Shown here one piece after another: positions 45,338 through 52,275 of a stretch of DNA of 64,000 nucleotides. The position numbers and the translations under genes were made by a program. The number at the start of each line of letters is the position of its first letter. The stretch's first letter is position 1. This DNA is from Acidocella sp. Lineage in GTDB: Bacteria; Pseudomonadota; Alphaproteobacteria; Acetobacterales; Acetobacteraceae. The DNA is taken from NCBI GenBank assembly GCA_031291755.1, contig JARLIK010000017.1, forward strand, positions 62,001 to 126,000, in the 5' to 3' direction. The notes beneath the pieces were generated by a model that saw only the letters and a program-made list of their open reading frames with translations, made no database searches and was not told the origin of the DNA.

Positions 45338-46225
45338 ATGATGCTTCGAGCCGCTTATGTTTCAGCCGTGCTTGCCGCTGTCAGTTTGGGGCCGGGTGCG
45401 GCACTGGCGCAGACTGACCCGAACGCCGCCGCCATCGCCGCCCTGAAAACCTATGAGCTGCCTGACCATACGGCATCGGTGCGGCTGCCGGCTTCATGGA
45501 AGGTGGTGGCAACCGGGGTGGGGTTTATTCAGGCCACGGGCCCGCATGGTGAGCTGGCTTTGTTTGGCGTGATGATCCCCGCCAAGGATGCCAGCCCCGC
45601 TGGTCTTTCAGCCGGCGGCATCATCCAGCCTTATGCGGCTGATGCCACCCAGCGGTTTTTGGCCTCGGTGGATTGGGTGCGGGCACATAATGGCAAGCCC
45701 GCGGTGCAGGCGGTGTTTTACAGCAACACGCCGATTACCGCACCGCCGGCCTTCGGCAATTGCGCCAACATAACGGCGGTGCTGAACGGTGTGGCGGCGG
45801 TGGAGAGCGATTTTTGCTCGCTGCCGGTTGATAATGCCGGTAACTACCGGAATTTTTTTAAAGCTGTGGGGCTGCCGGTGGCGGTGGCCAAGCAGGAGCG
45901 CAGTTTGATGGAGGCGATTCTCGCCAGCTACCGGCTGAACATCCAGGCCATTTCGCAACAGCAGGCGGTGCAAACCAAGGCACCCGCCGCACCGGCGCCG
46001 GTGGCGAACGCGCGCGGCAGTATGTCAGCCACCGTGAGTGCGCAAAATTCGCTGGTGGCCGGGCAATTGATGATGGCCGAAGCCAACGCCATTAGTGCGC
46101 AAACGGCTGCCATGCAGCAGGTTGTTAATAATTCGGTGAGTGATTTCGACCATGGCGTGCTGCGTGGTGACACACCCGTGTACCGCGAGGGTGACCCCGA
46201 GCCGCTGTTCTGGGTGGGGAATTAA
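45338..46225 (+). CDS. Hypothetical secreted protein
   Basis: Signal peptide MMLRAAYVSAVLAAVSLGPGAALAQ; 295 aa; GGAGGG upstream. Confidence 0.72.
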   Translation: MMLRAAYVSAVLAAVSLGPGAALAQTDPNAAAIAALKTYELPDHTASVRLPASWKVVATGVGFIQATGPHGELALFGVMIPAKDASPAGLSAGGIIQPYAADATQRFLASVDWVRAHNGKPAVQAVFYSNTPITAPPAFGNCANITAVLNGVAAVESDFCSLPVDNAGNYRNFFKAVGLPVAVAKQERSLMEAILASYRLNIQAISQQQAVQTKAPAAPAPVANARGSMSATVSAQNSLVAGQLMMAEANAISAQTAAMQQVVNNSVSDFDHGVLRGDTPVYREGDPEPLFWVGN

Positions 46226-46311: not shown

Positions 46312-46392
46312 GTAGGGTGGGTGAGCGGAGCGTAACCCACCATTCGTGCCGCCGCATAAAAACGATGGGTTGCGCTGCGGTTGCCCATCGTA
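46312..46392. repeat. Intergenic palindromic repeat (TAGGGTGGG..CGTAACCCACC type)
   Basis: TAGGGTGGGTGAGCGGAGCGTAACCCACCA followed by GATGGGTTGCGCTGCGGTTGCCCATCGTAC. Confidence 0.65.
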
Positions 46393-46398
46393 CATTTG

Positions 46399-47880
46399 CT
46401 AGTGTTTTGTCGGAGGTGATTTAACACCATTTTTTTTTAGTGTGGAAGGTGGTGCACCTACCTTAGAAGTGCTCGACCGTATGAAAGGTGTGCCGAATAT
46501 ATCTTCATATACTTCGGTAAACTGAACACTGTTTGAAACTTCTCTAAATACGGGCCATTGTCGATAATCTTCAGCATTTGGGTTTCCGTCTTTTCCGATC
46601 ACCTTCATAAGTTTTATGACAGTACTAATATCTTCGTTCACTGAGGCAACACTTATCTGATAAACTAATGCACAGGCAGACCAATCTTCTGTATTCAAAA
46701 TTAATCTTGCTTGCTCTTTTTTGCCTTGGAGTCTAACCGCATTTGCATAGTTAATTACGAGCATCAGCCGTGTTCTCTCGTCCATGCCCCGCGCTGGAAT
46801 TTTAGTCGCAAAGCTGAGCAGCGACTCAGCTAGAGGGTAGGCTTCACGAAAAATTAAATCGAAGCATAGTTCATTAAGAAATTTATCTGCTTCTTTTGAC
46901 TCTGATTTCAAAAACTTCTTCCATAAAACGTAAGTTAACTTTATACCAATTTCATAAATTATATTGACAGCCTTGGAAAAATAATCTGTATCTACATGAA
47001 GTTTTTGTCCGATTGTGATATTTTCGAGATCAAAATTTTGGCTCTTTCCAATGGAAATATATTGTTCTGAAACCATACCACCAGTATGTGTTAGGAGATT
47101 TCTACGTTCACAAATTTCTAGAAATTGTGGCCAAATGGACAGTCCTTCCCTCAATTTTACTGAAAACTTCTTCTCCATCCAGGTAAAATGCTCATGATGG
47201 CTTTCTCGAATAACACTTTCGACTTCTTTATCAATTATCGCTTGCCGTGCGTCTTCTATAGAAGCATAATCTTTAAGATCGGAATATTTTATTGATTTTT
47301 CTGATGTAAGTATTATTTCTTGGTGAATGTTCAGAACTACTTTTAGTAGGCGCGATAAAAAAGCATCATAGCAGCTAATTAAACCAATTATCATGACTTC
47401 AGGAAGATGACGCACTCCCTCTGCTGCAGATGCAGCTTCATTTTTGTGGATGGTAAACTCACGAAAGCAATCAAGGTCTAGTTCGTATATAGTTTTATCA
47501 TCGCGTGATATATCGTCCCTCTTTTTTCCCTTCGAAATGGCAAAGTCTCTGATTTTATTGGGTCCCATTACGATAGAAAGTATGGGAGCAAGCGTAAGAG
47601 TCACGGGAATAAATGTTCGATATAAAGCCATTGTTGAATTGAAAGACAAAAACAACTCTCGAAAGTTCGGATTTTCGGGCTGTGTAATTTCAGGAGGTTT
47701 TTCTTTGTGTTTTGTTTCGCCGCCAAATAATTCAGTGACCGATCCAGCGGTGCTATAAGCAACGACATGAGAATCTTTCTCCTGAATTCCAATATAAAAG
47801 CTTGGCCTATTTGCCTTCAGCGAAGCTACCAATTTTGTCTTGGATTTTACTGTTTTCTGATCGACCATTGTGACTTTCAT
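46399..47880 (-). CDS. Orphan HEPN-like domain protein (putative RNase), AT-rich, probably horizontally acquired
   Basis: About 493 aa from ATG 47880 (508 aa from GTG 47925); ICERRNLLTHTGG at 47086-47103 is an RN-x3-H motif in a helical context; C-terminal part looks TPR-like. Confidence 0.72.
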   Translation of the reverse strand: MKVTMVDQKTVKSKTKLVASLKANRPSFYIGIQEKDSHVVAYSTAGSVTELFGGETKHKEKPPEITQPENPNFRELFLSFNSTMALYRTFIPVTLTLAPILSIVMGPNKIRDFAISKGKKRDDISRDDKTIYELDLDCFREFTIHKNEAASAAEGVRHLPEVMIIGLISCYDAFLSRLLKVVLNIHQEIILTSEKSIKYSDLKDYASIEDARQAIIDKEVESVIRESHHEHFTWMEKKFSVKLREGLSIWPQFLEICERRNLLTHTGGMVSEQYISIGKSQNFDLENITIGQKLHVDTDYFSKAVNIIYEIGIKLTYVLWKKFLKSESKEADKFLNELCFDLIFREAYPLAESLLSFATKIPARGMDERTRLMLVINYANAVRLQGKKEQARLILNTEDWSACALVYQISVASVNEDISTVIKLMKVIGKDGNPNAEDYRQWPVFREVSNSVQFTEVYEDIFGTPFIRSSTSKVGAPPSTLKKNGVKSPPTKH

Positions 47881-48293
47881 AAAAATTCGGTGGTGATTGA
47901 GAATCTGTTGCTGAAGAAAAGCCACTGTATTGGTTTTGTTGGAAAATTTTAAATGTTAACAAAATTGTCTTGCTTACCAAACTACTGAAACTAACTATTA
48001 GCGTGAGGTCATCTTCTGCCGATCTCCTAGGTAGTCTTTCTTAGATTTACTTGGTTGTAAATGACCGTTCACAATTCGTTCTATATTGAGGAGGTCACCG
48101 CGAATATGCGGGCTAAGCCTTTTCGAAAAAGTTTGTGGCGTTCGATTTTATGAACCCAAAAGTTGATGAGCTCACCCCCGTCCGCCCCACCAATCTGCGT
48201 ACCAGCCTCCCAATCGGCTATAATTGCCCCCTGCCCCGCCGGGTTGTATGACCCCAGCCGGAACAAACCACCGCCAACAGGGGAACCCGCGCC

Positions 48294-49688
48294 ATGGCTG
48301 ACCAGAATTTTGATGTGATCGTGATCGGCTCCGGCCCTGGCGGCTATGTGGCGGCGATCCGGGCAGCGCAGTTGGGGCTGAAGACCGCCTGCGTCGAAAA
48401 ACGCGCCACCTTGGGCGGCACCTGCCTGAATATCGGCTGCATCCCCTCGAAGGCGCTGTTGCAATCCTCTGAGAATTTCCAGGAAATCAGCCATTCGGCG
48501 GCGGATCATGGCATCAATGTCGGGTCCATCAGCCTGGATCTGGCCCGGATGCAGGCCCGCAAGGGTGAGGTGGTGGGCGTCAATACCAAGGGCGTGGAAT
48601 TCCTGTTCAAAAAGAACAAGGTCACCTGGATCAAGGGCGAGGCGAAATTCACCAGCCCCACCGCCATCGAGGTAGCGGGCGCGGCCTATACCGCGAAAAA
48701 CTTCATCATCGCCACCGGCAGTGATTCCGTGCCGTTGAAGGGCGTTGAGGTGGATGAGCAGCGCATCGTTACCTCCACCGGCGCGCTGGAACTGAACGCG
48801 GTGCCGAAGCATCTGGTGGTCATCGGCGGCGGGGTGATCGGGCTGGAGCTGGGCTCGGTGTGGCGGCGCCTGGGCGCGGAAGTGACGGTGGTGGAATTTC
48901 TCGACCGCATTACCCCCACCATGGATAGCGAGATTTCCACCGCCTTCCAGAAAATCCTCGCCAAGCAGGGGTTTGTGTTCAAATTAGGCGCAAAGGTGAC
49001 CGGCGCGAAAGTGACCGGCAAGGGCGTGACCCTGACCGTGGAGCCGGCCAAAGGCGGGGCGGCGGAGACCATCGAGGCGGATGTGGTGCTGCTGGCCATC
49101 GGCCGTTACGCCTACACGGCGGGGCTGAACCTGGAAGCTGCCGGGGTGGCCGTTGATGAGCGTGGCCGGGTGAAGACCGATGCGCATTTTGCCACCAATG
49201 TGCCGGGCATCTATGCCATCGGCGATGTCATCACCGGCCCGATGCTGGCCCATAAGGCCGAGGATGAGGGTGTGGCCATCGCCGAGCGTCTGGCAGGGCA
49301 AGCCGGGCATGTGAATTATGATGCCATCCCGAGCGTGGTTTACACCTGGCCGGAAGTGGCCTCGGTGGGCAAAACCGAGGAGGAGCTGAAGGCGGCTGGC
49401 GTGGCGTATAAGGTGGGCAAATTCCCCTTCACCGCCAATGGCCGCGCCCGCGCCATGGGGGCTACCGATGGGTTTGTGAAAATCCTGGCCGATGCTGGCA
49501 CTGACCGTCTGTTAGGCGCGCATATTCTGGGGCCGGATGCCGGCACGCTGATTGCGGAGCTTACCACCGCCATCGAATTTGGTGCCTCGGCTGAGGATGT
49601 GGCGCGGATCTGCCATGCTCACCCCACGTTGAGTGAATCAGTAAAGGAAGCCGCCCTGGCGGTTGAGGGCCGTGCCCTCCATATCTAA
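48294..49688 (+). CDS. lpd: Dihydrolipoyl dehydrogenase
   Basis: [50 protein letters not shown]; redox CxxxxC; HAHPTLSE. Confidence 0.97.
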
Positions 49689-49691
49689 GCC

Positions 49692-50414
49692 ATGACAAAT
49701 TATATCCGGCTCGGCGTTAATATCGACCATGTGGCCACCCTGCGGAATGCGCGGGGTGGCACGCACCCTGACCCGTTTACCATCGCGCAGGCGTGCGTGG
49801 CGGCGGGGGCGGATGGCATCACCATCCATCTGCGCGAAGACCGCCGGCATATCCGTGATGCCGACGCCATTAAAATCTGCGCGGAAATTCCAGCGCCGAT
49901 TAATTTGGAAATGGCCGCCACTGAGGAGATGACCAGCATCGCCTGCCAGTTGAAACCGCACGGCGTCTGCATCGTGCCGGAGCGCCGCGCCGAGATCACC
50001 ACCGAGGGCGGGCTGGATGTGGTGTCGCATCAGGCGGAGCTAAAACCCCTCATCGCGCGGCTGAACGCGGCGGGGATTGTGGTGTCATTGTTTGTGGACC
50101 CGGAGCCTGCGCAGTTGCAGGCCGCCGTGGCGGTGGGGGCCGCCGTGGTGGAGTTGCACACCGGCGCTTATGCCAACCACAAGCCGGGCGAACTCGCCCG
50201 CCTGACCGCGGCTGCCGCGTTGACCACCAAGCTGGGGCTGGAATGTCATGCCGGGCACGGGCTGACCTATGAGAACGTCACGCCGGTTGCCGCGTTGCCG
50301 GAAATCCGCGAGCTGAACATCGGGCATTATCTGATGGGCGAGGCGCTGCTGGTGGGTCTGCCGGAAACCATCCGCCACATGAAAGGGCTGATGGAAGCGG
50401 CGCGGCAGGGTTAG
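49692..50414 (+). CDS. pdxJ: Pyridoxine 5'-phosphate synthase
   Basis: IRLGVNIDHVATLRNARGGTHPDP; GADGITIHLREDRRHI; GLECHAGHGLTYENV. Confidence 0.97.
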   Translation: MTNYIRLGVNIDHVATLRNARGGTHPDPFTIAQACVAAGADGITIHLREDRRHIRDADAIKICAEIPAPINLEMAATEEMTSIACQLKPHGVCIVPERRAEITTEGGLDVVSHQAELKPLIARLNAAGIVVSLFVDPEPAQLQAAVAVGAAVVELHTGAYANHKPGELARLTAAAALTTKLGLECHAGHGLTYENVTPVAALPEIRELNIGHYLMGEALLVGLPETIRHMKGLMEAARQG

Positions 50415-51370
50415 GATTTACCGCCGAACAGGGCTGCCTGGGCGGCGGGTGATTCGAACACGCAGGCTATATCATGGGCGCAGCCCGGCACCACGGTGAG
50501 GTGGTGCGCGCCCTTCGCCAGCATTTTGTTGTCATAGGCTTCGTAAAGCTGGCCGCGCTGCAGCCGGTACGGGCCTTGCAATTCGTCGCCGCATTTTTTG
50601 GCGAGCAGTTTGTAGAATGTGCCTGGGCCGGAACTGTCGTCGAGCGCGCCTTCCAGATATTGCACATCGGCTTTGATATAGGCGGCGCGAGCGGCGGCAG
50701 GGCTGCGTGTCAAATCGGGAGGTAAATTCGCGAGGCCGAGCTTCCAGTCATTATAACCGGGGCAGATGGCGCTGCCGGGCTCGGGCCGGTAATTATCAAA
50801 ATACAGCCAGGAGCCTGGGTCGGCGGCAACATAGCGCAGTTTTACACCGCCCGGCGGCGGGGCTGCGAAGCCCACGTAGTGCTGCACAAACTGCCCGCCG
50901 GCGGAAAACCCGGCGACGGTGATCACGCGCACGGTGGGAAATTGCTTGTGCAGGGCTGCAACAAGTGCGTCCATGGCGCTGAAGGAGGTGATAGCGCCGT
51001 TCTGCGCGGCATCGCCATCGAGCCAGGTGGGGCATCGCCATACGGCGTTGCTAGCTTGCGCGGCGGGCACGCCGGCGTATTGGCATTTGGTCGATTCATC
51101 GGCTGCGACGGCGAAGATGGGTGCTACCAGCACCAGGCTGGTTTGGTGCGCGGCGCTGGCGGCGGCCTGGGTGGCATCGAAGGTGCGGTTGGCATCACGC
51201 TTATAGCCATGCACCGCGATGATGATGCCGGTGGGGGCCGCGGGCGCGGGAGAGATATAATAATTCATCGTCAGGCCATGGCCGAGTTGCAGCGTGGCAA
51301 GCTGCGCCGGGGCCGCCTGCGCAAGCTGGCAGACCAGCAGCGATACCAGCGCGAGGATGATTCGTTTCAT
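50411..51370 (-). CDS. Secreted alpha/beta hydrolase-like protein (paralog A)
   Basis: Signal peptide MKRIILALVSLLVCQLAQAAPA; GIIIAVHGYKRDANRTFDA; GFSAGGQFVQHY; GCAHD. Confidence 0.77.
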   Translation of the reverse strand: MKRIILALVSLLVCQLAQAAPAQLATLQLGHGLTMNYYISPAPAAPTGIIIAVHGYKRDANRTFDATQAAASAAHQTSLVLVAPIFAVAADESTKCQYAGVPAAQASNAVWRCPTWLDGDAAQNGAITSFSAMDALVAALHKQFPTVRVITVAGFSAGGQFVQHYVGFAAPPPGGVKLRYVAADPGSWLYFDNYRPEPGSAICPGYNDWKLGLANLPPDLTRSPAAARAAYIKADVQYLEGALDDSSGPGTFYKLLAKKCGDELQGPYRLQRGQLYEAYDNKMLAKGAHHLTVVPGCAHDIACVFESPAAQAALFGGKS

Positions 51371-52275
51371 AGCGGACTCCTGGTGGGCGTGGTTGCAAAC
51401 AGCGCGCTGGCAGCACTGGGGTGGCTGAACATGGCGGTCATGTCATGGCCTGTTTGCGGAACGATGATGAGATTATGCCGTAAGGCGCTGCTAAATTTTT
51501 GGGTCAGGTAGCGCCAATGATTTTGTCCGCGCTCCAGCCGGTTGGCACCTTGGGGCCGTGCTGCCGGGCGCTTGTCGAGGGCTGCGGCATCGGGGTCGTT
51601 ATCGAGCGCGCCGAGAAGATAGGTGATGTTGTGCTGGGCGTAGCTGGCCGACACGCGGGGGAGGAACGCCGGGCGATTTTGCAAGCCATATTTCCAATCA
51701 TCAAAGCCAGGATACTGCGCTGCATCGGGGATTGCGAAACCGTTGGAGGCGGGGCGGATGGGGTCGAGATATAAATACGAACCAGGATTGGCGATGACGA
51801 AGCTGACCGGCAGACGGCTCGACGAGTTTTCAAAAAACACAGCATAACGCTGCAATAATTGCCCCCCGGCGGAATGCCCGGCAAGCGTGATGTGGCGCAA
51901 TGCCGGGAAGCGCGTGCGATCAGACAGCATGGCGATGAGTGTATCGAGCACGGTGAAGCTACTGATGCCCGATGGCCCGCACGCGGCTTCCGCGGCCATC
52001 CATTGGGCGTCAGGCCAGTGCAGAGTCTCCGGTGTTGCGGGACTGTCAGCCGGGCTGATGAATAGCGGCGCGATGATAAGCTGTGGCAGATTGACCTGGG
52101 CGCAGATTGTTTGCGCGGTGTCCAGGCATTTTTGCGCATCACCCCGGCGTCCATGAATCATGATGATGGCGCTGGTGTGATTGATACGCGGACGGGCAGG
52201 ATCATCATTGGCAAACACCCGAAGCGGATGATTTGCGATGCTGATGACCTGCCCGCCTGACGTTAGAGCCGTCAC
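51367..52275 (-). CDS. Alpha/beta hydrolase-like protein (paralog B)
   Basis: SAIIMIHGRRGDAQKCLDTAQ; GHSAGGQLLQRY; ANPGSYLYLDPIRP; QTGHDM; aligns by eye with the adjacent gene. Confidence 0.75.
   Translation of the reverse strand: MTALTSGGQVISIANHPLRVFANDDPARPRINHTSAIIMIHGRRGDAQKCLDTAQTICAQVNLPQLIIAPLFISPADSPATPETLHWPDAQWMAAEAACGPSGISSFTVLDTLIAMLSDRTRFPALRHITLAGHSAGGQLLQRYAVFFENSSSRLPVSFVIANPGSYLYLDPIRPASNGFAIPDAAQYPGFDDWKYGLQNRPAFLPRVSASYAQHNITYLLGALDNDPDAAALDKRPAARPQGANRLERGQNHWRYLTQKFSSALRHNLIIVPQTGHDMTAMFSHPSAASALFATTPTRSPL

Follow-up and report, generated by a model that had tools for sequence, protein, structure and literature searches.

Introduction

A lone AT-rich gene lying between a secreted-protein gene and lpd in the GC-rich genome of an Acidocella sp. 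raises the question of what its product is, where it came from and whether it serves in defence against phages. A preliminary description, made from the letters of the 64,000-nucleotide stretch analysed here (the window), had taken it for an acquired RNase-type effector. The homologues, predicted structure and genomic settings examined in this article indicate that the gene is probably a self-contained, horizontally transferred anti-phage effector with a HEPN endoribonuclease domain, and the strongest evidence for the earlier interpretation is the position of prophage relatives in the CI operon together with the defence genes that neighbour other copies.

The Locus and Its Surroundings

The open reading frame is intact and has 508 codons counted from its GTG. 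Its GC content of 0.36-0.38 contrasts with 0.60-0.65 in both flanks (surroundings of about 62% GC), and the shift has sharp edges near 46.4 and 48.1 kb, in agreement with the AT-rich ORF between two core-like neighbours that had been reported. The features of the locus are:

45338-46225, plus strand: secreted-protein-like ORF, neighbour of the gene
46312-46393, no strand assigned: dispersed palindrome-containing repeat of ~80-100 bp, abutting the 3' end of the gene
46399-47925, minus strand: HEPN-TPR-like protein, 508 aa from GTG, start codon uncertain (ORF list, homologues, alignments A3 and A6)
48294-49688, plus strand: lpd, neighbour of the gene

Possible starts are GTG 47925, ATG 47880, ATG 47868 and TTG 47835. 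Comparison with close relatives points to a start nearer residue ~30: L023, from a prophage, and the alphaproteobacterial L074 both begin close to the segment that matches residues ~30-43 of the window protein. Residue numbers below are nevertheless counted from the GTG. Past lpd, two tandem hydrolase-like ORFs (50411-52275, minus strand; 319 and 302 aa) overlap by 4 nt and are apparently paralogous.

The lpd side, which the preliminary description had singled out for comparative genomics, differs among relatives: a close one (G031) has a different, short ORF between the carrier gene and lpd, in another (G006) the gene immediately preceding lpd encodes an intact Mrr-type restriction endonuclease (L070:5155-6081), and a third (G017) has a TonB-receptor-like gene. 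Since the order of the genes ahead of lpd is for the most part poorly preserved past the closest relatives, the region is regarded as a variable site and not as a proven defence hotspot. The repeat at the 3' end of the gene has further copies on genome contigs C1, C3, C34 and C37, and is possibly a REP/MITE-type element involved in insertion.

A Rare and Mobile Family

Against Pfam, NCBIfam, PHROGs and PADLOC the window protein gave no match above cut-off, and an NCBIfam scan of 20 family members gave nothing relevant. About 30 relatives were recovered from at least eight phyla, from plasmids and from prophages. Translated searches located them on cyanobacterial plasmids (Crinalium and two Nostoc, 36-38% identity) and, more distantly, on a Parageobacillus plasmid. 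A single-sequence scan of genome contigs found no relatives; the alignment-guided scan yielded 15 loci, distributed over Pseudomonadota, Kiritimatiellota, Acidobacteriota, Bacteroidota, Sumerlaeota, Moraniibacteriota, Planctomycetota and Cyanobacteriota, together with 11 viral contigs. Three queries against the phage GenBank collection returned no relatives; the evidence from prophages therefore comes from IMG/VR contigs.

The family is rare. In its own genus the gene occurs in one of 38 genomes and is absent from the other 37 searched, which speaks against strict vertical inheritance; the corresponding figures are 2 of 100 genomes for the family Acetobacteraceae and 8 of 399 for the phylum, the latter count including shorter HEPN-only relatives. 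In the phylogenetic tree the window gene has the prophage gene L023 as its sister (support 100/99), and two Acetobacteraceae genes come next. In all loci examined, the gene has a lower GC content than its flanks, the difference reaching as much as 31 GC points. Judged by this composition, phylogeny and patchy distribution, the gene is foreign and the family widely transferred, as its preliminary classification as an acquired gene had anticipated.

Prophage Copies and Defence Neighbours

On six viral contigs representing four or five lineages (L023, L025, L027/L028, L032 and L033) a CI/S24-type repressor immediately precedes the gene on the same strand, and in the five cases tested the repressor belonged in every one to phrog_4 (transcriptional repressor). 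Other viral copies follow umuDC (L026), an integrase with a 4-bp overlap (L030) or a portal gene (L029), or adjoin GmrSD_N (L031). The CI-operon position holds for the prophage relatives; the window copy itself lies outside any prophage. In two related isolate prophages (L032:7513-8780 and L033:4663-5930) the gene is split, just upstream of the motif, into two ORFs with a 4-nt overlap, which reflects either a frameshift common to both or a form made of two proteins; these copies are 98% identical, yet stand behind different CI repressors.

Defence genes accompany a number of further copies among the neighbours that were hand-picked for annotation. A CAP12/Pycsar-type TIR protein adjoins the gene in Kiritimatiellota (L009:9169-9987) and in Bacteroidota (L017:6936-7850), on different sides, and a functional pairing of the two proteins is possible. 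A NACHT protein neighbours the gene in L019, an Eco57I-type methylase and a PLD/SNF2 helicase in a DISARM-like arrangement on the Nostoc plasmids (L003/L004), and a type I restriction-modification system on the Crinalium plasmid (L002/L037). Roughly half of the copies on chromosomes have only ordinary genes around them and lie in no defence island. Because relatives sit in the prophage immunity operon and beside defence genes, the gene is most likely a single-protein, prophage-disseminated abortive-infection RNase that shuts cells down upon phage infection.

The preliminary description had seen no partner and allowed for a single-gene system, and this part of it held: ~30 loci contain no conserved partner, and clustering of neighbours recovered only phage repressors, one TIR pair and sharing between near-identical relatives. 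The same result bears on the alternative that survives best, in which the protein serves as the HEPN toxin in an addiction or toxin-antitoxin module. The antitoxin would be a small RNA, a host factor or a distant gene, and the toxin would act mainly to maintain the mobile element. HEPN toxins are common in toxin-antitoxin systems, AbiF-type HEPN proteins are RNA-controlled, relatives are borne on plasmids and a small unknown ORF lies beside some viral copies (e.g., L023 7493-7834); however, apart from the repressors and the TIR pair no neighbour family recurs. An MNT antitoxin was found neither at the window gene, whose neighbours are the secreted protein and lpd, nor as a recurrent partner in other loci. 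An RNA antitoxin at the window locus was rejected, as there is no Rfam match and the upstream leader is no stabler than its shuffles (z = 0.02). Such a module is considered unlikely.

A still less probable role is that of a HEPN domain in host or phage RNA processing or in the regulation of lysogeny, for instance by modulating phage transcripts, instead of defence. The place of the gene in the prophage CI operon would fit such a role, and some HEPN proteins are RNA-binding regulators, but orphan chromosomal copies occur in about eight phyla without phage genes, defence neighbours recur, and the catalytic triad is strictly conserved, not lost.

The Predicted HEPN Domain

The assignment of the abortive-infection RNase proposed here to the HEPN superfamily depends on its active-site motif and on the fold around it. 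AlphaFold2 (AF2) modelling and the alignments delimit the following parts of the protein:

47662-47925, minus strand: residues 1-88, N-terminal extension modelled at low confidence and containing a short beta-hairpin at ~42-56 (AF2)
47326-47664, minus strand: long helical hairpin, residues 88-200 (helices 88-132 and 151-200; AF2)
47200-47260, minus strand: HEPN helix-2-like segment, residues 222-242, K-E-x-E236-x3-R240-x-S242-H243 (alignment, AF2)
47086-47103, minus strand: RNLLTH, R-N-x3-H motif (R275, N276, H280), at the C-terminal end of helix 265-281 (alignment, AF2)
46465-46905, minus strand: C-terminal TPR-like helical solenoid, residues 341-487 (AF2 with pLDDT mostly >90, Foldseek)

HEPN RNases are defined (PMC3710099) by an Rx4-6H motif located where helix 3 ends and the following loop starts, a polar residue (N, D or H) directly after the arginine and, in helix 2, an acidic residue that forms part of an Ex3[KR] element. 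All of these sequence elements are present in the family. The reverse complement of 47086-47103, AGAAATCTCCTAACACAT, encodes RNLLTH, in which R is residue 275 and H residue 280, as had been read from the window, and R275-x4-H280 and the polar N276 are retained in 28 of 28 aligned sequences. These three residues are the sole identical positions in an alignment so divergent that overall identity to the window protein falls as low as 15-40%, which argues that RNLLTH is more than a chance occurrence and disposes of the concern that R and H might be poorly conserved in homologues. The preceding helix bears K233-E234-x-E236-x3-R240-x-S242-H243, its Ex3R element falling within helix 223-239, with E or D at position 236 and R at position 240 each in 26 of the 28 sequences.

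Profiles of known HEPN families match several members at 1e-2 to 2.5e-4, under their curated cut-offs. RTasHEPN (PADLOC) weakly matches 5 of 20 members across the motif region (best 4.2e-4, below the curated cut-off), and two Pfam models match one member each below their gathering thresholds: HEPN_RiboL-PSP in L007 (2.5e-4; residues 97-227, motif at 212) and HEPN_Cthe2314 in L011 (6.7e-3; residues 166-229, motif at 202).

The full AF2 model, built on 17 sequences, has a mean pLDDT of 79, with residues 89-480 mostly above 80 and many above 90; a model of the domain alone reached 91. A disordered N-terminus and a short hairpin are followed by the long helical hairpin 88-200, helices 223-239 and 243-254, helix 265-281 with the motif at its end, helices 287-296 and 313-338, and helix pairs up to 477. 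The secondary structure thus describes an all-helical domain in which the motif ends helix 3, as in HEPN, and the model yielded no indication that RNLLTH is buried or lies outside such a bundle. Of the HEPN four-helix bundle that had been put forward, the helices and motif placement agree with the model, but Foldseek retrieved no HEPN structure: the isolated domain gave nothing relevant, and searches of PDB sequences with the window protein and two profiles produced no relevant match and no HEPN. With the full model, Foldseek returned only TPR and solenoid proteins at insignificant E-values (KLC1 TPR with probability 0.77, PilF and P58IPK), in line with the TPR-like tail proposed earlier. The N-terminal extension resembles, by eye, sequence in the prophage homologue L023 and in L074, and this region may act as a sensor.

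Membership in the HEPN superfamily is very likely on sequence motifs, structure comparison having given no proof. That R-N-x3-H instead plays a structural part in an all-helical fold unrelated to HEPN, as the missing fold-level match to HEPN structures and the sub-threshold status of all family matches might suggest, is highly improbable given that R, N and H are the only fully invariant residues in 28 sequences, that N follows R and Ex3R lies in the preceding helix as in HEPN, and that three unrelated HEPN models match members at the right position, if below cut-offs.

Comparison With Known Systems

ApeA and other single-protein defence effectors combine a HEPN effector with extra helical domains in one protein, an organization predicted for the window protein as well; the Pfam models HEPN_Apea, Abi_2, AbiV and AbiU2 matched neither it nor 19 other members. 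Genes for lysogenic conversion of the RexAB/BstA type (BstA, PMC8585504) are likewise prophage-encoded (Rex in the CI operon) and exclude other phages, but their proteins are unrelated to the present family. The RTasHEPN proteins of DRT systems show weak profile similarity across the motif region but at 4e-4 at best, and no reverse transcriptase lies beside the window gene or among the neighbours annotated in other loci. HEPN_RiboL-PSP and HEPN_Cthe2314 cover the helix-2-to-motif region of members with weak matches, but these lie under the gathering thresholds and the two families have other flanking domains.

The closest functional parallel is Tha of Staphylococcus aureus prophages, a single protein encoded in the CI operon with the HEPN motif RNSIMH, whose RNase is switched on by a tail protein of the infecting phage and causes abortive infection (PMC11087260). 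The family described here shares the single prophage protein in a CI operon and a similar motif (RNLLTH in the window protein), and activation of the RNase by a component of the infecting phage, leading to abortive infection, is proposed for it as well. Tha differs in having 301 aa with a C-terminal HEPN domain and no TPR-like tail, and its system includes an antisense inhibitor gene, Ith. Profile comparison detected no homology to Tha: hhalign of Tha-1 of 80alpha against alignment A6 gave a probability of 0.1. With no profile homology and a different architecture, the family would work like Tha without being Tha.

Proposed Mechanism and Implications

In an uninfected cell the HEPN domain would be kept inactive by its own flanking helical regions and/or the C-terminal TPR-like solenoid. 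Upon infection, the TPR-like or N-terminal region may bind a phage-derived component or sense a phage-induced change, and the activated HEPN domains, which usually act as dimers, would then cut host and phage RNA at the predicted active site R275/N276/H280, supported by E236/R240. Growth would stop and no phage would be released. Temperate phages would carry the gene for lysogenic conversion, expressed with the CI repressor, and the family would also be deposited alone in chromosomes and plasmids. A more specific version has about equal chances of being right or wrong: an unnamed one-protein family of HEPN-TPR-like phage sensors and RNases, found in phages as CI-operon cargo, on plasmids and in at least eight phyla, in which the tail recognizes a conserved phage component and unleashes the RNase by a Tha-like logic of independent origin.

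If the reading as an anti-phage effector is correct, this is an unnamed and uncatalogued family of single-protein effectors among the libraries and open papers searched, which hold no family model or naming paper; a literature search with homologue accessions likewise retrieved no paper, and supplementary tables or paywalled work could mention the family. Ordinary defence-island mining would miss it, as many of its members are carried as prophage cargo or stand by themselves on chromosomes. Its recurrence behind CI in several unrelated prophages would offer a clean setting in which to test how lysogens are armed by their prophages and how a single protein both senses phage and kills, and would add evidence that HEPN RNases are repeatedly recruited into CI operons.

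Three shorter relatives (L005:722-1510, L036:1285-2073 and L076:987-2030), two of which were tested against Pfam with no match, have no TPR-like tail and keep the R-N-x3-H motif; they seem to form a sister family of stand-alone HEPN proteins.
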